NCBI RefSeq assembly: GCF_016919245.1
Contig: NZ_JAFEJA010000002.1
Coordinates: 62,001 to 126,000, forward strand
DNA length: 64,000 nt
Origin: Streptomyces zhihengii
Lineage (GTDB): Bacteria > Actinomycetota > Actinomycetes > Streptomycetales > Streptomycetaceae
Direction: 5' to 3'
The position numbers and the translations under genes are program-made. Below the pieces are notes generated by a model. The model was not told the origin of the DNA. It did not search any database and saw nothing but the letters and a program-made list of their open reading frames with translations. Below, piece by piece: positions 584 to 7,626 of the stretch. Numbering within the stretch: the first letter of the stretch is position 1; each line of letters starts with the position of its first letter.

Positions 584-1273
584 TCACCCCCGGGCGGCCG
601 TCACCAGGCCCTCCATCACCCGGGTGTCGGCGCCCATCTCCGGGTGCCACTGCACCCCGACCACCCACGCTCCGCCGGTGCCGGTCTCCAGGGCCTCCAC
701 CGTCCCGTCCTCCGTGTGCGCGCCCGCCGTCAGGCCGTCGCCGAGGACGTCCACCGCCTGGTGGTGGTAGGTCGGCACGGACGTGGCCTCCGGCACGAGG
801 GCCGCGTACCGGGTGCCCGGCACCGGCTTGACCAGGTGCTCGCCGAACACCCCGGTGTCCGGCCCGAGATGACCGTCGAGGTGCTGCCGCAGCGAGCCCC
901 CGAGCGCCACGTTGAGCAGCTCCATGCCGCGGCAGATGCCGAGCAGCGGCGTCCCGGACGCCAGCGCCGCCCGGATCAGCGCCAGTTCCCAGGCGTCCCG
1001 TTCAGGGGCGGGCGGCCCGGTGCGCGGGTCGCGTTCCGCGCCGTAGAGCGACGGGTCGACGTCCGGCCCGCCGGCCACGACCAGCGCGTCGAGCCGGGAG
1101 ACGACGGCCGCGGCGCGGCCCGGCTCGTCCGGCGGGAGCATCGCGGCCAGGCCCCCGGCCGCCTGCACCAGACGCGGATAGCCGGCCGGCAGCAGCGCGG
1201 CGGGCAGATCCCACACGCCCCAGCGGGCGGACGCCTCCAGATAGGTGCTGACTCCGACGAGCGGCGCGGTCAT
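584..1273 (-). CDS. PuuD-like class I gamma-glutamyl amide hydrolase
   Basis: Predicted to hydrolyse a gamma-glutamyl amide (family model: gamma-glutamyl-GABA hydrolase PuuD) to glutamate and a free amine acid. The 229-residue protein has the class I glutamine amidotransferase layout of peptidase C26: nucleophile elbow GICRGMELLN with Cys114, and GVQWHPE with His210 and Glu212 near the C-terminus; the loop VAGGPDVDPSLYG is typical of PuuD proteins. The ATG at 1273 is preferred because an AGGA lies five bases upstream; an ATG at 1285 would give an ATGA overlap with the upstream permease gene. It is the last gene of a leftward permease-hydrolase unit and fits as the final, deglutamylating step of the GlnA4 pathway. 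The true substrate is inferred from neighbours. Confidence 0.85.
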   Translation of the reverse strand: MTAPLVGVSTYLEASARWGVWDLPAALLPAGYPRLVQAAGGLAAMLPPDEPGRAAAVVSRLDALVVAGGPDVDPSLYGAERDPRTGPPAPERDAWELALIRAALASGTPLLGICRGMELLNVALGGSLRQHLDGHLGPDTGVFGEHLVKPVPGTRYAALVPEATSVPTYHHQAVDVLGDGLTAGAHTEDGTVEALETGTGGAWVVGVQWHPEMGADTRVMEGLVTAARG

Positions 1274-1281
1274 GACGGTCC

Positions 1282-2763
1282 TCATCCCTTGCGTTCCAGC
1301 TCGGCCTCGGCGGCCGCCAGCGCCGCGAACTCCTCCTCCGGGGCGCGTGCCACCAGCCGGTGCCGACTGTAGAAGGCGAAGTAGGCGAGGGCCACGGCGT
1401 ACACGGCGAGCGCGGTGAACGCGGCCTCCCTGTCCACCAGGAACGTGGCCACCAGCGCCGACAGCGCGAGGACGAAGGCGACCGACGAGGTGACCACCCC
1501 GCCCGGTGTCCGGTACGGACGCGGGAGCTCCGGCTCGCGGCGGCGGAGCACGATGTGGGAGAGGGCCATCAGCGCGTAGCTGATGGTCGCGCCGAAGACG
1601 GCGATGTTCAGCATCCGGGCGCCGTTCCCGGTGCCCGCCGCCAGCGCGAACCCGATGGCGCCGGGTATCAGCAGGCCGAGGTACGGCGACTTGCGACGGC
1701 TGGTGAGGGAGAGGAAGCGCGGCAGGTACCCGGCCCGCGAGAGCGCGAAGAGCTGGCGCGAGCCCGCGTAGATCAGCGAGAAGAAGGAGGCCACGAGGCC
1801 CGCGAGCCCCGCGTAGTTGACGAAGCGGCTGAGCGCCGTCGGGTCCCCGTCGCCCTGGAGCGCCACCACCAGCGGGTTGCCCGCCTCCTGGATCGCGGCC
1901 GAGCCGCGCGCGCCGCTGGCGGCGAAGAAGGTGAGGATCGCGAGCAGCACCAGCACGCCCATGGAGATCGCCAGCGCCCGGGGCATCGACCGCACCGGGT
2001 CCTTGGCCTCCTCGGCGGCGAGCGGCACCCCCTCGACCCCGAGGAAGAACCACATCCCGAACGGGAAGGCGGCCCAGATCCCCAGCAGCCCGAACGGCAG
2101 CCAGGAGGAGGAGCCGAACGCCTCCGCGTCCACCGGGATGTCGTCGAGCGAGCCTCCGTCGAACTCGGTGAAGGCGCCCACCGCGAAGATCAGCAGCGCG
2201 GCGACGGCGATGGCGGTGACGACCAGGCTGAAGCGCAGGGCCTCGCCCACGCCCCACAGGTGGATGCCGATGAAGACGGCGAAGCAGGCCAGGTAGACCG
2301 GCCACCCCGACTCCAGGCCGAACAGGCCGAGGGACTCGACGTAGTCGCCGATGAAGATGGAGATGGCGGCGGGGGCCAGGATGTACTCGATCAGGATGGC
2401 CGTGCCCGTCAGGAAGCCGCCCCAGGTGCCCAGGGCCCGGCGGGCGAAGCCGTAGCCGCCGCCGGCCGTCGGCAGGATCGCGGACAGCTCCGCGAGCGCG
2501 AAGACCAGGCAGGCGTACATCGCGCCCATCAGCAGGGTGGCGACGGCCAGGCCGCCGAAACCGCCCTTGGAGAGCCCGATGTTCCAGCCGGAGAAGTCGC
2601 CGGAGACGACGTACGCGACGCCGAGCCCCGTCAGCAGCAGCCAGCCGGCGCTGCCCCTGCGCAGGGTGCGGCGGTCCAGATAGGCGTCGCCCTGCGGGGA
2701 GTCCGCGGCGGACGAGGGGGTGGGGCCGGAGGGGGAGGGGCGCGATGTGGTGCCTTCAGCCAT
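1282..2763 (-). CDS. APC-superfamily amino acid/amine permease (ethanolamine-permease-like)
   Basis: A 493-residue polytopic membrane protein with about 12 hydrophobic segments and a charged, Ser/Pro-rich cytoplasmic N-terminus. GWNIGLSKGGFGGL in the first helix, AELSAILPTAGGGYGFARRALG in helix 2 to 3 (key residues P, GGG, R) and the EEAKDPVRSMPRAL loop after helix 6 mark it as an APC transporter; the first-helix sequence resembles the ethanolamine permease group rather than basic amino acid exchangers. An AGGAG lies eight bases before the ATG. It shares a transcription unit with the PuuD-like hydrolase and its promoter region carries a palindrome shared with the FadR/glnA4 region. Substrate ethanolamine or a small amine is inference. 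Confidence 0.85.
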   Translation of the reverse strand: MAEGTTSRPSPSGPTPSSAADSPQGDAYLDRRTLRRGSAGWLLLTGLGVAYVVSGDFSGWNIGLSKGGFGGLAVATLLMGAMYACLVFALAELSAILPTAGGGYGFARRALGTWGGFLTGTAILIEYILAPAAISIFIGDYVESLGLFGLESGWPVYLACFAVFIGIHLWGVGEALRFSLVVTAIAVAALLIFAVGAFTEFDGGSLDDIPVDAEAFGSSSWLPFGLLGIWAAFPFGMWFFLGVEGVPLAAEEAKDPVRSMPRALAISMGVLVLLAILTFFAASGARGSAAIQEAGNPLVVALQGDGDPTALSRFVNYAGLAGLVASFFSLIYAGSRQLFALSRAGYLPRFLSLTSRRKSPYLGLLIPGAIGFALAAGTGNGARMLNIAVFGATISYALMALSHIVLRRREPELPRPYRTPGGVVTSSVAFVLALSALVATFLVDREAAFTALAVYAVALAYFAFYSRHRLVARAPEEEFAALAAAEAELERKG

Positions 2764-3032
2764 GGGGTCGCTCCTGGCTCAGGTCAAAGGTTTGTGCGGA
2801 CACCTTTGCGGCAGCGCGGCGGCTGCGCAAGCCCTGTGCGTAAACCCGGTGTTACGGGTGCCGCCGCCTCGCCGCGCCTTCGCCGCCCCGCCGCGCGCCG
2901 CCCTGCCTTCGTGCGCCGCGCGCTCCGCCGCCTCGGTCGCCCCTGCCTTCCGCGCGCCGCCCCGCCGTGACCGGACCGCGGTGACCGCCCCCGTGACCGG
3001 ACCGCGGTCTGCGAGTCACCCTGCCCCGGATC
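2764..3032. promoter_or_regulatory. Permease upstream region with GGTnT-N6-AnACC operator candidate
   Basis: This 269-nt gap lies between the permease start and the stop of the FadR-family gene. At 2785-2808 there is an inverted repeat with arms CAAAGGT and ACCTTTG; its core, 2789-2804, reads GGTTTGTGCGGACACC. The same GGTnT-N6-AnACC pattern occurs at 3799-3814 in front of the regulator and glnA4. The spacing of 22 to 45 nt from the permease ATG suits a repressor site. A second weaker inverted repeat, CGTAA and TTACG, is at 2838-2855. The remainder is C-rich and shows no gene. Confidence 0.5.
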
Positions 3033-3773
3033 TCAGGCCAGGAACCCGCGCAGCAGCGCGGCCGTCCCCTCGCAGTGCTCGCGCATCACCTCGCGCGCCG
3101 CCTCCGCGTCCCCGTCCAGCACCGCCTCCACCAGCGCCGTGTGCTGGTGCTGGGAGTGTTCGAGGTTGCGCACCAGCAGCGGGATGCAGTCGAGCAGGTC
3201 GTTGAGCGTGGCCCGGACCGCCGCGTAGCGGGCGGTCAGCGAGGGGGAGCCGGACAGCTCGGCCAGGGTCAGATGCAGCAGGGTGTCCTGCTTGCGGTAG
3301 TCCGTGAGCGGCGCGTCCTTCGTCGCCGCGAGCGCCGAGCGCAGCCGGTCCGCGCCGGGCCCGGTGAGCCCGTGGGCGGCGCAGAGCCCGGCCGCGCCCG
3401 TCTCCAGCACCTCGCGGAAGCGCAGGGTGTCCTCCACGTCGACCCCGGCGACCCGGCGGCGCAGCTCGTCCTCGCCGTGGCCGCCGGGGCGGGGCAGCAC
3501 AAACGTTCCGCCGTAGCGGCCGCGCCGGCTCTCCACCAGCCCCTGGTCGGCGAGCACCTTGAGGACCTCCCGCAGGGTGACCCGGCTGATGCCCATCCGC
3601 TCGGCCAGCTCCCGCTCCGCGGGCAGCCGTTCGCCGCCGGAGACCAGCCCGAGCCGCAGCAACTGGAGGATCTGCTCCAGCGCCTCCTCGAAGCCGTTCC
3701 CCGCGCGGACCGGCCGCAGCACCGGAGTCAGCCGGTCCGCGGACCCGTTCGCCGTCCCAGCCGTCTTCGCCAC
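3033..3773 (-). CDS. FadR-subfamily GntR transcriptional regulator
   Basis: N-terminal winged helix with the GntR signature (RLPAERELAERMGISRVTLREVL, key residues ER-LAE-G-SR-T-RE), recognition wing GRYGGTFV, then an all-helical FCD domain with the metal-binding-type pattern (LRFREVLE, the DTLLHLTLAE stretch and the final EHCEG helix). Such proteins bind small carboxylates or amides and repress adjacent catabolic genes. The GTG at 3773 is chosen because AAGGGG precedes it; a TTG at 3797 with GGAG upstream would add eight residues. It is transcribed divergently from glnA4, and a palindrome at 3799-3814 sits between them, so autoregulation and control of glnA4 and the permease are likely but inferred. 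Confidence 0.85.
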   Translation of the reverse strand: MAKTAGTANGSADRLTPVLRPVRAGNGFEEALEQILQLLRLGLVSGGERLPAERELAERMGISRVTLREVLKVLADQGLVESRRGRYGGTFVLPRPGGHGEDELRRRVAGVDVEDTLRFREVLETGAAGLCAAHGLTGPGADRLRSALAATKDAPLTDYRKQDTLLHLTLAELSGSPSLTARYAAVRATLNDLLDCIPLLVRNLEHSQHQHTALVEAVLDGDAEAAREVMREHCEGTAALLRGFLA

Positions 3774-3798
3774 CTCGCGTTTCCCCTTCCCAAGCAAT

Positions 3799-3814
3799 GG
3801 TCTCCAGTAATACC
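3799..3814. promoter_or_regulatory. Candidate FadR-family operator in the regulator/glnA4 intergenic region
   Basis: GGTCTCCAGTAATACC has the GGTnT-N6-AnACC arrangement with flanking ACCTT on the right arm, as does the site at 2789-2804 upstream of the permease. The general GGT...ACC half-site form is common for GntR-type regulators. It lies between the divergent regulator and glnA4 starts, where one bound dimer could shut off both promoters. No binding data; the assignment rests on the shared pattern at two promoters. Confidence 0.45.
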
Positions 3815-3850
3815 TTATGGCTCCCGGCTGGCCCTAGGAGGAGTGATCCC

Positions 3851-5215
3851 GTGGCAGACCGCACACCCCCGCTCTCGCTCGACGACCTGCGGGCCGAGGT
3901 CCAGCGGGGCGAGATCGACACCGTCGTCCTGGCCTTTCCCGACATGCAGGGCCGCCTCCAGGGGAAGCGGTTCGCCGCGCCGTTCTTCCTCGACGAGGTC
4001 GCCGAGCACGGCACGGAGGGCTGCAACTACCTCCTCGCCGTGGACACCGAGATGAACACCGTCGAGGGCTACGACATGTCGTCCTGGGACCGCGGCTACG
4101 GCGACTTCGCCATGCACCCCGATCCCACCACGCTGCGCCGGATCCCCTGGCACCAGGGCACCGCGCTGCTGATGGCCGACCTCGCCTGGCACGACGGCTC
4201 GCCCGTCGTCGCCGCGCCCCGCCAGATCCTGCGCCGCCAGCTCGACCGCCTCGCGGAACGCGGCTGGACCGCGCAGGTGGGCACCGAGCTGGAGTTCATC
4301 GTCTTCAAGGACACCTACGAGCAGGCCTGGGACCGCGACTACCGGGGCCTGACACCGGCCAACCAGTACAACATCGACTACTCCGTCCTCGGCACCGGCC
4401 GCATCGAGCCCCTGCTGCGCCGCATCCGCAACGAGATGGCGGGCGCGGGGCTCACCGTCGAGTCCGCCAAGGGCGAGTGCAACCCCGGCCAGCACGAGAT
4501 CGTCTTCCGCTACGACGAGGCCCTGGTCACCTGCGACCAGCACGCCCTCTACAAGACGGGCGCCAAGGAGATCGCCGCCCAGGAGGGCGTCTCGCTCACC
4601 TTCATGGCCAAGTACAACGAGCGCGAGGGCAACTCCTGCCACATCCATCTGTCCCTCGTCGACGCCGACGGACGGAACGTGATGGCGGGCGACGGCCCCG
4701 GCGGCATGTCCCCCGTGATGCGCCACTTCCTCGCCGGCCAGCTCGCCGCCCTGCGCGACTTCTCGCTCCTCTACGCCCCCCACATCAACTCCTACAAGCG
4801 CTTCCAGCCCGGCTCGTTCGCGCCGACGGCCGTCGCCTGGGGCCACGACAACCGCACCTGCTCCCTGCGCGTCGTCGGCCACGGCCGCTCGCTGCGCTTC
4901 GAGAACCGGCTGCCGGGCGGCGACGTCAACCCGTACCTCGCCGTCGCCGGCCTGGTCGCCGCGGGCCTGCACGGCGTCGAGCAGGAACTCGAACCGCCCG
5001 AGGCCTGCACCGGCAACGCCTACACCGCCGACTACGCGCACGTCCCCACCACCCTCCGCGAGGCCGCCGAGCTCTGGGAGAACAGTCCCGTCGCCAAGGC
5101 CGCCTTCGGGGACGAGGTCGTCGCCCACTACCTCAACATGGCGCGCGTCGAACTCGCCGCCTTCGACGCCGCCGTCACCGACTGGGAGCTGCGCCGCTCC
5201 TTCGAACGCATGTGA
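3851..5215 (+). CDS. glnA4: GlnA4-type gamma-glutamylethanolamide synthetase (glutamine synthetase-like)
   Basis: A glutamine-synthetase-fold ligase that joins the gamma-carboxyl of glutamate to an amine at the expense of ATP. It has 454 residues with the GS beta-grasp N-terminus, the metal-binding GTELEF at 144-149, ECNPGQHE, the NSCHIHLSL strand and the C-terminal RFENRLPGGDVNPYLA glutamate/ATP region. In S. coelicolor the orthologue in the equivalent position (SCO1613) has been described as gamma-glutamylethanolamide synthetase rather than a glutamine synthetase. GTG start at 3851 follows a strong AGGAGGAG. The genes on both sides (permease, FadR regulator, aldehyde dehydrogenase, SDR, gamma-glutamyl hydrolase) support a catabolic amine role. 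Orthology is from recalled synteny, not alignment. Confidence 0.88.
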   Translation: MADRTPPLSLDDLRAEVQRGEIDTVVLAFPDMQGRLQGKRFAAPFFLDEVAEHGTEGCNYLLAVDTEMNTVEGYDMSSWDRGYGDFAMHPDPTTLRRIPWHQGTALLMADLAWHDGSPVVAAPRQILRRQLDRLAERGWTAQVGTELEFIVFKDTYEQAWDRDYRGLTPANQYNIDYSVLGTGRIEPLLRRIRNEMAGAGLTVESAKGECNPGQHEIVFRYDEALVTCDQHALYKTGAKEIAAQEGVSLTFMAKYNEREGNSCHIHLSLVDADGRNVMAGDGPGGMSPVMRHFLAGQLAALRDFSLLYAPHINSYKRFQPGSFAPTAVAWGHDNRTCSLRVVGHGRSLRFENRLPGGDVNPYLAVAGLVAAGLHGVEQELEPPEACTGNAYTADYAHVPTTLREAAELWENSPVAKAAFGDEVVAHYLNMARVELAAFDAAVTDWELRRSFERM

Positions 5216-5223
5216 GGACGCAC

Positions 5224-6594
5224 GTGTCAGAGCCGTACGCACTCGACGTACTGAACCCGGCCACCGAGGAGGTCGTCGCCACCGTCCCCGGTGCCACCGC
5301 CGCCGACGTGGACGCGGCCGTCGCCCGCGCCGCGGCCGCCCAGCGGACCTGGGCGGCCGCCGCGCCCGCCGACCGCGCCCGGCTGCTGCGCCGCTTCGCC
5401 GGTGTGGTCGACGCCCGCATCCCGGAACTGGCCGCCCTGGAGGTCAGGGAGGCCGGCCACACCATCGGCAACGCCCGCTGGGAGGCGGGCAACGTCCGCG
5501 ACCTGCTGGAGTACTCCGCCGGGGGAGTGGAGCGCCTGACGGGCCGCCAGATCCCGGTGCCCGGCGGTATCGACATCACCCTGCTGGAGCCGCTCGGCGT
5601 CGTCGGCGTCATCGCGCCGTGGAACTTCCCCCTGCCGATCGCCGCCTGGGGCGCGGCCCCCGCGCTCGCCGCGGGGAACGCCGTGATCCTGAAGCCGGCC
5701 GAGACCACCCCGCTGACCGCGCTGCGGCTCGCCGAGCTGGCCCTGGAGGCCGGGCTCCCCGAACACCTCCTCCAGGTGCTGCCCGGCCGCGGGGACGTCG
5801 CGGGCGAGGCCCTGGTGCGGCACCCCGGCGTGGCCAAGATCGTGTTCACCGGATCCACCCGGACCGGGAAGCGGATCATGTCCCTCGCCGCCGGACAGGT
5901 GAAGCGGGTCACCCTCGAACTCGGCGGCAAGAGTCCCAACATCGTCTTCGCCGACGCCGATCTGGAGCGGGCGGCCGCCGCGGCCCCCATGTCCTTCCTG
6001 GACAACAGCGGCCAGGACTGCTGCGCCCGGACGAGGATCCTCGTCCAGCGCTCCGTCCACGACCGGTTCCTCGACCTGCTCGCGCCGGCCGTCACCTCGG
6101 TGACCGTGGGCGACCCGGCCGACGAGCGGACGGACATGGGGCCGCTGATCTCCAAGGTCCAGCTCGAACGGGTGCGTTCCTACGTGCCCGACGGCGCCGA
6201 GGGCATCCGCGGCACCGCCCCCGCCGGCCCCGGCTTCTGGTTCCCGCCGACCGTGCTGACCGGCCTGTCCGCCGACGCGCCCGCCGCGTGCGAGGAGATC
6301 TTCGGCCCGGTCGCCGTCGTCCTGCCCTTCGACGACGAGGCGGACGCCGTACGGCTGGCCAACGCCACCGAGTACGGCCTCGCGGGCTCCATCTGGACCC
6401 GCGACGTGGGCCGCGCGCTGCGGGTCTCCGGGGCCGTCGCCGCCGGCAACCTCTCCGTCAACTCGCACTCCAGCGTCCGCTACTGGACCCCCTTCGGCGG
6501 CTACAAGCAGTCAGGGCTCGGCCGGGAACTGGGCCCCGACGCCCTCACCGCCTTCACCGAGACCAAGAACGTCTTCCTCAGCACGGAGGTCTGA
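5224..6594 (+). CDS. NAD(P)-dependent aldehyde dehydrogenase
   Basis: A 456-residue class I/II ALDH. Visible are the cofactor segment APWNFPLP, ILKPAETTPLTA, GSTRTGKRI, the general base in LELGGKSPN (Glu232), the catalytic loop NSGQDCCARTR with Cys266, EEIFGPV and the C-terminal PFGGYKQSGLGRE. The GTG at 5224 has GAGGA eight bases upstream and begins eight bases after the glnA4 stop, so the two are co-transcribed. In the proposed pathway it would oxidise a gamma-glutamylated aldehyde to the acid, as PuuC does in putrescine breakdown. The exact aldehyde is inferred. Confidence 0.9.
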   Translation: MSEPYALDVLNPATEEVVATVPGATAADVDAAVARAAAAQRTWAAAAPADRARLLRRFAGVVDARIPELAALEVREAGHTIGNARWEAGNVRDLLEYSAGGVERLTGRQIPVPGGIDITLLEPLGVVGVIAPWNFPLPIAAWGAAPALAAGNAVILKPAETTPLTALRLAELALEAGLPEHLLQVLPGRGDVAGEALVRHPGVAKIVFTGSTRTGKRIMSLAAGQVKRVTLELGGKSPNIVFADADLERAAAAAPMSFLDNSGQDCCARTRILVQRSVHDRFLDLLAPAVTSVTVGDPADERTDMGPLISKVQLERVRSYVPDGAEGIRGTAPAGPGFWFPPTVLTGLSADAPAACEEIFGPVAVVLPFDDEADAVRLANATEYGLAGSIWTRDVGRALRVSGAVAAGNLSVNSHSSVRYWTPFGGYKQSGLGRELGPDALTAFTETKNVFLSTEV

Positions 6595-6600
6595 GCACCC

Positions 6601-7386
6601 ATGACCGATGAGACCCCCATCTGCCGCCGCCTGGTCGGCCGCACCGCAGTCGTCACCGGCGCCGGCAGCGGCATCGGCCTCGCCACCGTGCGCAGGCTCG
6701 CCTCGGAGGGAGCCCATGTCGTCTGCGGCGACATCGACGAGACGGCGGGCAAGGCGGCCGCCGACGAGGCCGGCGGGACCTTCGTCCGCGTCGACGTCAC
6801 CGACGCCGACCAGGTGGAGGCGCTGTTCCGGACGGCGTACGAGACCTACGGCAGCGTCGACATCGCCTTCAACAACGCGGGCATCTCGCCCCCGGACGAC
6901 GACTCGATCCTGGACACCGGCCTGGAGGCGTGGAAGCGCGTCCAGGAGGTCAACCTGACCTCGGTCTACCTGTGCTGCAAGGCCGCCATCCCCTACATGC
7001 GGCGCCAGGGCCGGGGCTCGATCATCAACACGGCCTCGTTCGTCGCCCGGATGGGAGCGGCGACGTCGCAGATCTCCTACACCGCGTCCAAGGGCGGCGT
7101 CCTCGCGATGTCCCGGGAACTGGGCGTGCAGTTCGCCCGCGAGGGCATCCGGGTCAACGCCCTCTGCCCGGGGCCGGTGGACACCCCGCTGCTGCGCGAG
7201 CTGTTCGCCACGGACCCCGAACGCGCCGCCCGCCGGCTGGTGCACATCCCCGTCGGACGCTTCGCCGACGCGACGGAGATCGCCGCCGCGGTGGCGTTCC
7301 TGGCCAGCGACGACTCCTCGTTCGTCAACGCCACGGACTTCCTGGTGGACGGCGGGATCTCCGGGGCGTACGTCACGCCGCTCTAA
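6601..7386 (+). CDS. Short-chain dehydrogenase/reductase (SDR)
   Basis: A 261-residue classical SDR: cofactor loop TGAGSGIG (residues 19-26), NNAG, catalytic Ser and YTASK, and the C-terminal GGISG. Asp in GDID after the second strand suggests NAD(H) preference. It follows the aldehyde dehydrogenase by six bases with a GGAGG inside that gene's end, so it is the third gene of the glnA4 operon. A role as the alcohol dehydrogenase turning gamma-glutamylethanolamide into the aldehyde is an inference from position. Its TAA stop is the edge of an inserted MITE-like element. Confidence 0.88.
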   Translation: MTDETPICRRLVGRTAVVTGAGSGIGLATVRRLASEGAHVVCGDIDETAGKAAADEAGGTFVRVDVTDADQVEALFRTAYETYGSVDIAFNNAGISPPDDDSILDTGLEAWKRVQEVNLTSVYLCCKAAIPYMRRQGRGSIINTASFVARMGAATSQISYTASKGGVLAMSRELGVQFAREGIRVNALCPGPVDTPLLRELFATDPERAARRLVHIPVGRFADATEIAAAVAFLASDDSSFVNATDFLVDGGISGAYVTPL

Positions 7387-7580
7387 GGGCTGTCCCGCAA
7401 TCCCCGGCGGGGCGCGCGACGACAGCTACGGCACCTCGCCGCGTTGTCGAATGGCCCGAATACGCCCAGTACGAGGACGACTCTCCGCCTTGCGATGCCT
7501 CCCCTGCGCCCTGCGGGCCCGGGGAGGCCCCATGCGTCTGACGCCGCACGCTGATCCACCGGGCATTGCGGGACAGCCCT
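7386..7580. mobile_element. MITE-like element with 22-bp terminal inverted repeats
   Basis: The ends are exact inverted copies over 16 bases (7386-7401 and 7565-7580, AGGGCTGTCCCGCAAT and its complement) and match at 21 of 22 positions when extended to 7407 and 7559. The 195-bp element has no credible reading frame, so it would need a transposase supplied in trans. The GGGCTGTCCCGCAA end resembles termini of IS elements I associate with Streptomyces, from memory. The left end begins in the last base of the SDR stop codon. No clean target duplication is visible (left flank CTCTA, right flank GAGGC). Confidence 0.7.
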
Positions 7581-7626
7581 GAGGCGGGGCCGGTGGCGCG
7601 GCAGTGCCGCGCATAGGCTGGGCCGC

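Follow-up and report, generated by a model that had tools for sequence, protein, structure and literature searches.

In this study, we analysed a 64,000-nucleotide stretch of the Streptomyces zhihengii genome (the window) and focus on a six-gene locus at positions 584-7386, which very probably encodes a complete gamma-glutamylation route for the breakdown of ethanolamine. The window, with a G+C content of 71-79% when measured in 4-kb steps, belongs to a genome of 9.73 Mb (handle G000, contig C2). All six genes are intact and open, and they form two divergent sets with the regulator in between. The minus-strand set comprises the regulator, a FadR/GntR-type repressor of 246 amino acids (aa) and counterpart of EpuRI (SCO1614; 3033-3773, start assigned to the GTG at 3773), an APC-type ethanolamine permease of 493 aa (1282-2763), and a PuuD-like gamma-glutamyl hydrolase of the Peptidase C26 family (584-1285), by position the counterpart of orf5/SCO1615 and predicted to act as gamma-glutamylglycine hydrolase, the genes for hydrolase and permease overlapping by 4 bases. 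The plus-strand set begins with glnA4, which encodes the 454-aa counterpart of the gamma-glutamylethanolamide synthetase SCO1613 (3851-5215), directly followed by the genes of an aldehyde dehydrogenase (ALDH; 5224-6594) and a short-chain dehydrogenase/reductase (SDR; 6601-7386) with intergenic gaps of 8 and 6 bases; by position, these are the counterparts of SCO1612 and SCO1611, predicted to be a gamma-glutamyl-aminoacetaldehyde dehydrogenase and a gamma-glutamylethanolamide dehydrogenase, respectively. For glnA4 we assign the GTG at 3851, which is conserved across the aligned upstream regions (n = 30, the window and 29 loci); the ATG at 3797 proposed by the open reading frame (ORF) finder as ligase start lies too early. 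The original prediction had recognised permease, GlnA4-type ligase, SDR, ALDH, PuuD-like hydrolase and FadR-type regulator as lying together, and all of them are indeed present, with domain matches far above chance; the layout in two divergent sets, a permease passing a curated ethanolamine permease cut-off and a genome without an EutB match go beyond it.

The block is the published Streptomyces ethanolamine gamma-glutamylation cluster, and the pathway is thus already known. The main text of Krysenko et al. (2019, PMC6529630) describes the cluster SCO1610-SCO1615 in S. coelicolor and homologous clusters in S. venezuelae, S. scabies, S. albus and S. pristinaespiralis (five Streptomyces in total). 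There, GlnA4 (S. coelicolor SCO1613) was assayed and formed gamma-glutamylethanolamide, it is reported to be ethanolamine-specific, glnA4 encodes no gamma-glutamylpolyamine synthetase, and a glnA4 mutant did not grow on ethanolamine in liquid defined medium. The same paper reports that growth on ethanolamine gave almost twice the biomass when the permease SPRI_5940, absent from S. coelicolor, was expressed, and it identifies EpuRI as a repressor of glnA4, a gene derepressed upon epuRI deletion. Furthermore, in electrophoretic mobility shift assays (EMSA), EpuRI bound the promoters of both glnA4 and epuRI as well as other S. coelicolor targets (PMC8998196). The original prediction that only the GlnA4 step is firmly shown therefore holds for the enzymes, but not for the permease and EpuRI, since the former was tested by growth and the latter was tested as well. 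Likewise, its reading as a gamma-glutamylation pathway is the best supported one and coincides with the published route, whereas the SDR as alcohol-oxidising step, taken there to be new, had already been assigned: the Discussion of PMC6529630 predicts SCO1611 for the oxidation of gamma-glutamylethanolamide, SCO1612 for the aldehyde step and SCO1615 for gamma-glutamylglycine hydrolysis. Two reviews restate the route (PMC9397018, PMC11356490), the text of the latter still giving the later steps as predicted.

Four published primers (PMC6529630) were compared with the window. The cloning primer of SPRI_5940 is identical to the first 20 bases of the permease gene (20/20), and the glnA4 reverse primer matches 19/19 at 4564-4582, as the sole exact one among four matches within 3 mismatches. 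The primer for SCO1614 (epuRI) matches with 3 mismatches in 20 (17/20), and the one for SCO1612 has no match in the window within three mismatches, which counts against very close DNA similarity there.

Judged from profile matches, the six proteins are placed clearly at the superfamily level by Pfam and NCBIfam. The regulator carries FCD (PF07729, E=1.1e-18) and PF00392 (E=4.6e-15), the permease AA_permease_2 (E=9.4e-40), the ligase Gln-synt_C (PF00120, E=4.1e-103), the ALDH Aldedh (PF00171, E=1.2e-161), the SDR adh_short_C2 (E=1.2e-66) and the hydrolase C26 (PF07722, E=8.7e-63). With 78.2 bits against a cut-off of 266 for the PuuD equivalog NF008471, the hydrolase is PuuD-like only, and its closest solved structure is 3fij (Lin1909, 5.3e-36), ahead of 6vtv PuuD (E=1.6e-19).

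Taken together, we propose, with a probability of roughly 85%, a five-step route from ethanolamine to glycine and glutamate in which EpuRI represses both operons via a shared palindrome. The permease would bring in ethanolamine, and GlnA4 would couple it to glutamate using ATP, yielding gamma-glutamylethanolamide, the step that others have demonstrated in S. coelicolor. The SDR would then convert the free primary alcohol to gamma-glutamyl-aminoacetaldehyde, the ALDH would turn this into gamma-glutamylglycine, and the C26 hydrolase would free glycine and glutamate. EpuRI is expected to bind AAWGGT-N10-ACCWTT in each promoter, the site and the control of the permease operon being predicted, and with a shared operator import and hydrolysis would rise together with the three-enzyme operon. 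Following the argument of PMC6529630, acetaldehyde would never be made in such a route and hence no microcompartment would be needed. In agreement, the Eut ammonia-lyase EutB had no match at E<=0.001 in the genome holding the window, in a search aimed at EutB alone, in which E. coli gave the sole match among 14 control genomes.

The block is conserved far outside this strain, as the original prediction demanded for its reading. Among 25 genomes of the genus, the own one included, 23 carry GlnA4, and the two without it are 79% and 99% complete. In a sample of 296 Actinomycetota genomes, the ligase (E<=1e-80) was found in 80 and the SDR (E<=1e-70) in 73; both occur together in 71 of the 80 ligase genomes compared with 2 of the 216 others, leaving nine genomes with the ligase only and two with the SDR only (Fisher p = 1.6e-55, uncorrected for relatedness). 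The two genes are also close neighbours, with 64 out of 75 SDR matches having a ligase match no more than 10 kb away, 10 of the remaining 11 on a contig without a ligase match and one at a distance of 17 kb. Partner genes were sought by tblastn inside the stretches fetched around 100 ligases; 40 rows of the genus search were fetched, leaving out three rows of 42-44% identity and one partial row of 67%, and 60 of the 85 match rows of the phylum search, of which two more (G000 and G013) were already included and 23 were left out, some being partial and some full-length at 45-50% identity. Among the 29 fetched Streptomyces loci, ALDH and SDR are both present in all, hydrolase, ALDH and SDR all lie near the ligase in 28, the regulator is found in 29, the hydrolase in 28 and the permease in 14, the latter count being in line with the published lack of a permease in S. 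coelicolor. Outside Streptomyces, the three partners are all present in 36 of 45 loci whose ligase is at least 60% identical, in 7 of 23 loci at 46.5-60% and in none of three below; some of the loci with missing partners end at contig borders, and others, for example L048, L058, L070 and L080, have full flanks. In a further set of 80 named loci, the best 80 of at least 580 candidates and biased towards mycobacteria owing to the mycobacterial type of the first query row, all four enzymes lie together in 76, and the four exceptions are on contigs of 3.2-8.9 kb. Most non-Streptomyces loci keeping all four genes show the order ligase-hydrolase-ALDH-SDR, many with an EpuRI homologue 3' of the SDR, and the hydrolase beyond the regulator, on its far side, is a peculiarity of Streptomyces. 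These genome comparisons support the view that the genes for ligase, SDR, ALDH and hydrolase form a single unit, which is found far outside Streptomyces as well.

In the loci without an alcohol or aldehyde dehydrogenase gene, a replacement was found in none of the ten neighbouring ORFs scanned; the same scan revealed, besides unrelated families, amino acid permeases in L096 and L072 and, in L117, a class-I glutamine amidotransferase as a possible substitute for the hydrolase. Some ligase relatives stand in other surroundings. In L048 (G025:C18, 4-8464), a ligase 64% identical to GlnA4 ends a siderophore-type gene run with a pyridoxal phosphate-dependent decarboxylase, two IucA/IucC synthetases and a Lys/Orn monooxygenase, a context in which relatives of GlnA4 may have taken on a biosynthetic role. 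L070 (G200:C2) and L058 (G018:C3) are second GlnA4-like copies of 69% and 58% identity without hydrolase, ALDH and SDR inside the fetched stretch, the former near a nonribosomal peptide synthetase module and a serine hydroxymethyltransferase-like protein, the latter near a condensation-domain protein. Among the named loci, the contig of L172 is filed as an Acidobacteria metagenome-assembled genome, although its block is most mycobacterial-like and includes an EpuRI homologue, so that the filing is probably a binning error.

The window proteins were further aligned with the matching pieces from the 100 fetched loci above thresholds of identity and length (for the hydrolase, at least 35% identity and at least 60% of the length). 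Glu232 and Cys266 of the ALDH (81/81 rows), Asn118, Ser146, Tyr160 and Lys164 of the SDR (87/87) and Cys118, His214 and Glu216 of the hydrolase (79/79) are invariant, residues which we take to be catalytic from what is known of these families. The same holds for the ligase motif residues Glu146, Glu148, Glu209, Glu216, His264, His266, Arg317, Arg335, Arg340, Arg349, Glu351 and Arg353 (98/98 rows), most of which, read by motif rather than by formal alignment, match the ligands given in the text of PMC6529630 at an offset of 8-10.

Regarding the control of the locus, the 77-base gap between epuRI and glnA4 contains an element closely conserved in Streptomyces with the core AATGGT-N10-ACCTTA (3796-3817), and the promoter region of the permease-hydrolase operon contains AAAGGT-N10-ACCTTT (2786-2807, read on the plus strand). 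A narrower motif used earlier, AATGGT-N8..11-ACCTTA, had one site in the genome, and the wider AAWGGT-N10-ACCTTW revealed the second; this wider pattern occurs in only two places in the genome holding the window, both in this cluster, and in 34 places in the 25 genus genomes, 32 of them within the cluster. For scoring, we used the consensus AAWGGT-N10-ACCWTT with 12 positions and N10 spacing. Scoring upstream of glnA4 was applied to loci that have a ligase of at least 60% identity, both ALDH and SDR, and no less than 250 bases of upstream sequence (143 out of 180, the total being made up of 100 loci with a G handle and 80 named ones), and an EpuRI homologue was counted as present at a match of at least 44% identity in the fetched stretch, with L180, just below, counted as without. 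In front of glnA4, a score of 11 of 12 is attained by every one of the 46 Streptomyces loci, with a reversed-pattern control at 9 or less. The second promoter, scored in 46 of 47 Streptomyces loci including the window (L041, with no hydrolase or permease match, was skipped), reaches 11 or 12 in all 46, again with the control at 9 or less; the site lies between epuRI and the permease in 22 loci and between epuRI and the hydrolase in 24 permease-less ones. As L029 equals L203 in sequence, each of these counts of 46 includes one duplicate. Outside Streptomyces, 24 of the 45 loci that have an EpuRI homologue reach 11 or 12 of 12 positions, and none of the 52 without one does, the reversed control staying at 10 or less in both groups; the site thus goes along with the regulator, a correlation to be read with care since the loci are related. 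In L064, tandem repeats with a unit of about 8 bases (GGAAGCCA/GCAAGCCA) separate the operator from glnA4 and shift it upstream, the ligase match beginning 239 bases downstream of the operator.

Based on these sequence patterns, the palindrome is probably the EpuRI operator, and control of the permease-hydrolase operon by EpuRI at this palindrome is our prediction. No EpuRI site is stated in the literature searched at the level of main texts: in those of PMC6529630 and PMC8998196, "palindrom" and "operator" are both absent, and "motif" is absent from the former and appears once in the latter, about GlnR. Alternatively, both palindromes could be promoter elements or sites of another regulator. 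The copy at glnA4 overlaps, by eye, a possible -10 box (TACCTT), and part of the link between site and regulator could reflect the relatedness of the loci, the group without the regulator being rich in slow-growing mycobacteria. We nevertheless consider this explanation unlikely, as one palindrome stands in two different promoters flanking epuRI on both sides, precedes the hydrolase gene in 24/24 loci lacking the permease, and is present at 11 or 12 of 12 positions outside Streptomyces exclusively in loci with an EpuRI homologue.

A less probable alternative keeps the same five-step logic but assumes a different small amino alcohol, or a broader range of short amines, as the main natural substrate, with ethanolamine as one among several. 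The ligase leaves some room for it, since it scores under the cut-off of every NCBIfam model listed (best 252.2 versus 469.6 bits; gamma-glutamylputrescine synthetase 223.8 bits with a cut-off of 650) and the family alone does not fix the amine, and its relatives of 58-69% identity occur partly in other gene contexts. Its nearest solved structures are 11zs (423.8 bits) and, second-best, 5dm3 (387.5 bits), labelled "L-glutamine synthetase" in the database. The latter is presumably the enzyme of Chromohalobacter salexigens, the organism not being given by that label. On the other side, the permease exceeds the cut-off of the curated model TIGR00908 "ethanolamine permease" (488 versus 381.75 bits), as the only one of 17 matches to this model in the genome. 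From chemical inference, a pair of alcohol and aldehyde dehydrogenases fits a primary amino alcohol, whereas a secondary one would yield a ketone and render the ALDH superfluous. Together with the reported ethanolamine specificity of GlnA4, this makes ethanolamine the far better candidate.

The least probable of the three alternatives places the SDR outside the route, for example as a 3-oxoacyl-ACP reductase, with an unlinked alcohol dehydrogenase oxidising gamma-glutamylethanolamide. It would agree with the name of the NCBIfam model that the SDR passes, NF004713 "3-oxoacyl-ACP reductase" (503 bits, cut-off 404), and with C. salexigens, in which a PF00465 enzyme is assigned to the alcohol step (PMC9397018). 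We regard it as very improbable, because the SDR accompanies the ligase in 71 of the 80 ligase genomes and occurs without it in only 2, and because it is adjacent across the phylum, within the tightly spaced order glnA4-ALDH-SDR. Moreover, Arg211, Arg212 and His215 are invariant in the block-linked SDRs (86/86 rows having a letter there). The nearest solved structure, 4wec, aligns over residues 7-261 with 391 bits, compared with 182.7 bits for the next one; we take 4wec to be mycobacterial, the match listing stating no organism. The three solved SDRs ranking next after 4wec have both arginines substituted and, except for 4ni5, the histidine as well. It is tempting to speculate that the three residues bind the glutamyl carboxylate. 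Argued from genome context, the name 3-oxoacyl-ACP reductase is probably wrong for the block-linked SDR family. A mere chance neighbourhood of the genes is ruled out by the conservation across the phylum.

Several points weigh against the proposed route and its control, nonetheless. Classical SDRs act more often on secondary alcohols. The block dissolves in distant Actinomycetota, and the substrate may differ there because only 7 of the 23 loci in the lower identity class keep all three partners. The motif scores are partly circular, because the consensus was settled after viewing sites in the same loci. Across the 25 genus genomes, the reversed control pattern matches 22 times when counted by strand, including once in G000, so that a chance match per genome is unsurprising and the clustering is what counts. 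Outside Streptomyces, 21 of the 45 loci with an EpuRI homologue score under 11 of 12, some of them looking, by eye, like the same half-sites at different spacing. In addition, the EMSA targets include sites elsewhere in S. coelicolor (PMC8998196), and the exact motif is confined to the cluster in the genome studied here. The alcohol step of C. salexigens is assigned to an iron-dependent dehydrogenase (PF00465; PMC9397018), and the literature examined, as far as its available text goes, holds no assay of any actinobacterial enzyme after GlnA4.

Compared with known systems, SCO1610-SCO1615 of S. coelicolor and its homologues (PMC6529630) resemble the window in gene content, the divergent regulator and, beyond it, hydrolase and permease; S. 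coelicolor itself lacks the latter, which the window shares with S. pristinaespiralis, and this is no difference in kind. The intermediates proposed for C. salexigens (PMC9397018) and Phaeobacter sp. MED193 (PMC10132767) are the same, with ligase, alcohol step, aldehyde step and gamma-glutamylglycine hydrolysis in common. However, C. salexigens is assigned the PF00465 dehydrogenase and a PF05013 hydrolase instead of SDR and C26 hydrolase (PMC9397018), and Phaeobacter sp. MED193 has a TRAP transporter and an RpiR-type regulator instead of an APC permease and the FadR-type EpuRI (PMC10132767). The Phaeobacter operon is described as analogous, its proteins being raised on phosphorylethanolamine, and the same text, citing other work, states that the genes of C. 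salexigens and Agrobacterium were shown to work as a pathway (PMC10132767); assays of the later steps may therefore exist for those organisms, on enzymes belonging to different families. The Puu putrescine pathway of E. coli follows the same logic as the window, with a glutamyl cap, an ALDH and a C26 hydrolase, yet the ligase and the hydrolase of the window stay under the gamma-glutamylputrescine synthetase and PuuD cut-offs. At the step where the proposed route has an alcohol dehydrogenase, the Puu route uses an oxidase. The Eut pathway starts from the same substrate and leads to acetaldehyde, whereas the product proposed here is glycine.

Beyond the pathway genes, a repeat resembling a miniature inverted-repeat transposable element (7383-7583) begins at the stop codon of the SDR gene. 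Its inverted repeats of 28 bases are 89% complementary and separated by 145 bases, and the same genome has two more near-full copies (93%) and several partial ones.

In conclusion, our analysis extends the published cluster by a predicted operator, by evidence that the unit is widely distributed and by doubts about the name of the SDR, and it reveals no new kind of system. As far as the text of the sources goes, the functions of the three later actinobacterial enzymes have been inferred since 2019, and one of these enzymes has a probably misleading database name. The outcome is a defined candidate operator, an SDR family for re-annotation and a four-enzyme block as a shared unit. With somewhat less confidence than for the route itself, we favour the broader view that AAWGGT-N10-ACCWTT serves as an EpuRI-type operator from Streptomyces to Mycolicibacterium and Microbacteriaceae, standing in Streptomyces before both halves of the pathway, and that the block-linked SDR family, of which 4wec would be a solved member, is the gamma-glutamylethanolamide dehydrogenase of a widespread route. 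If true, a complete, microcompartment-free route from ethanolamine to glycine would be widespread in Actinomycetota, mycobacteria included.

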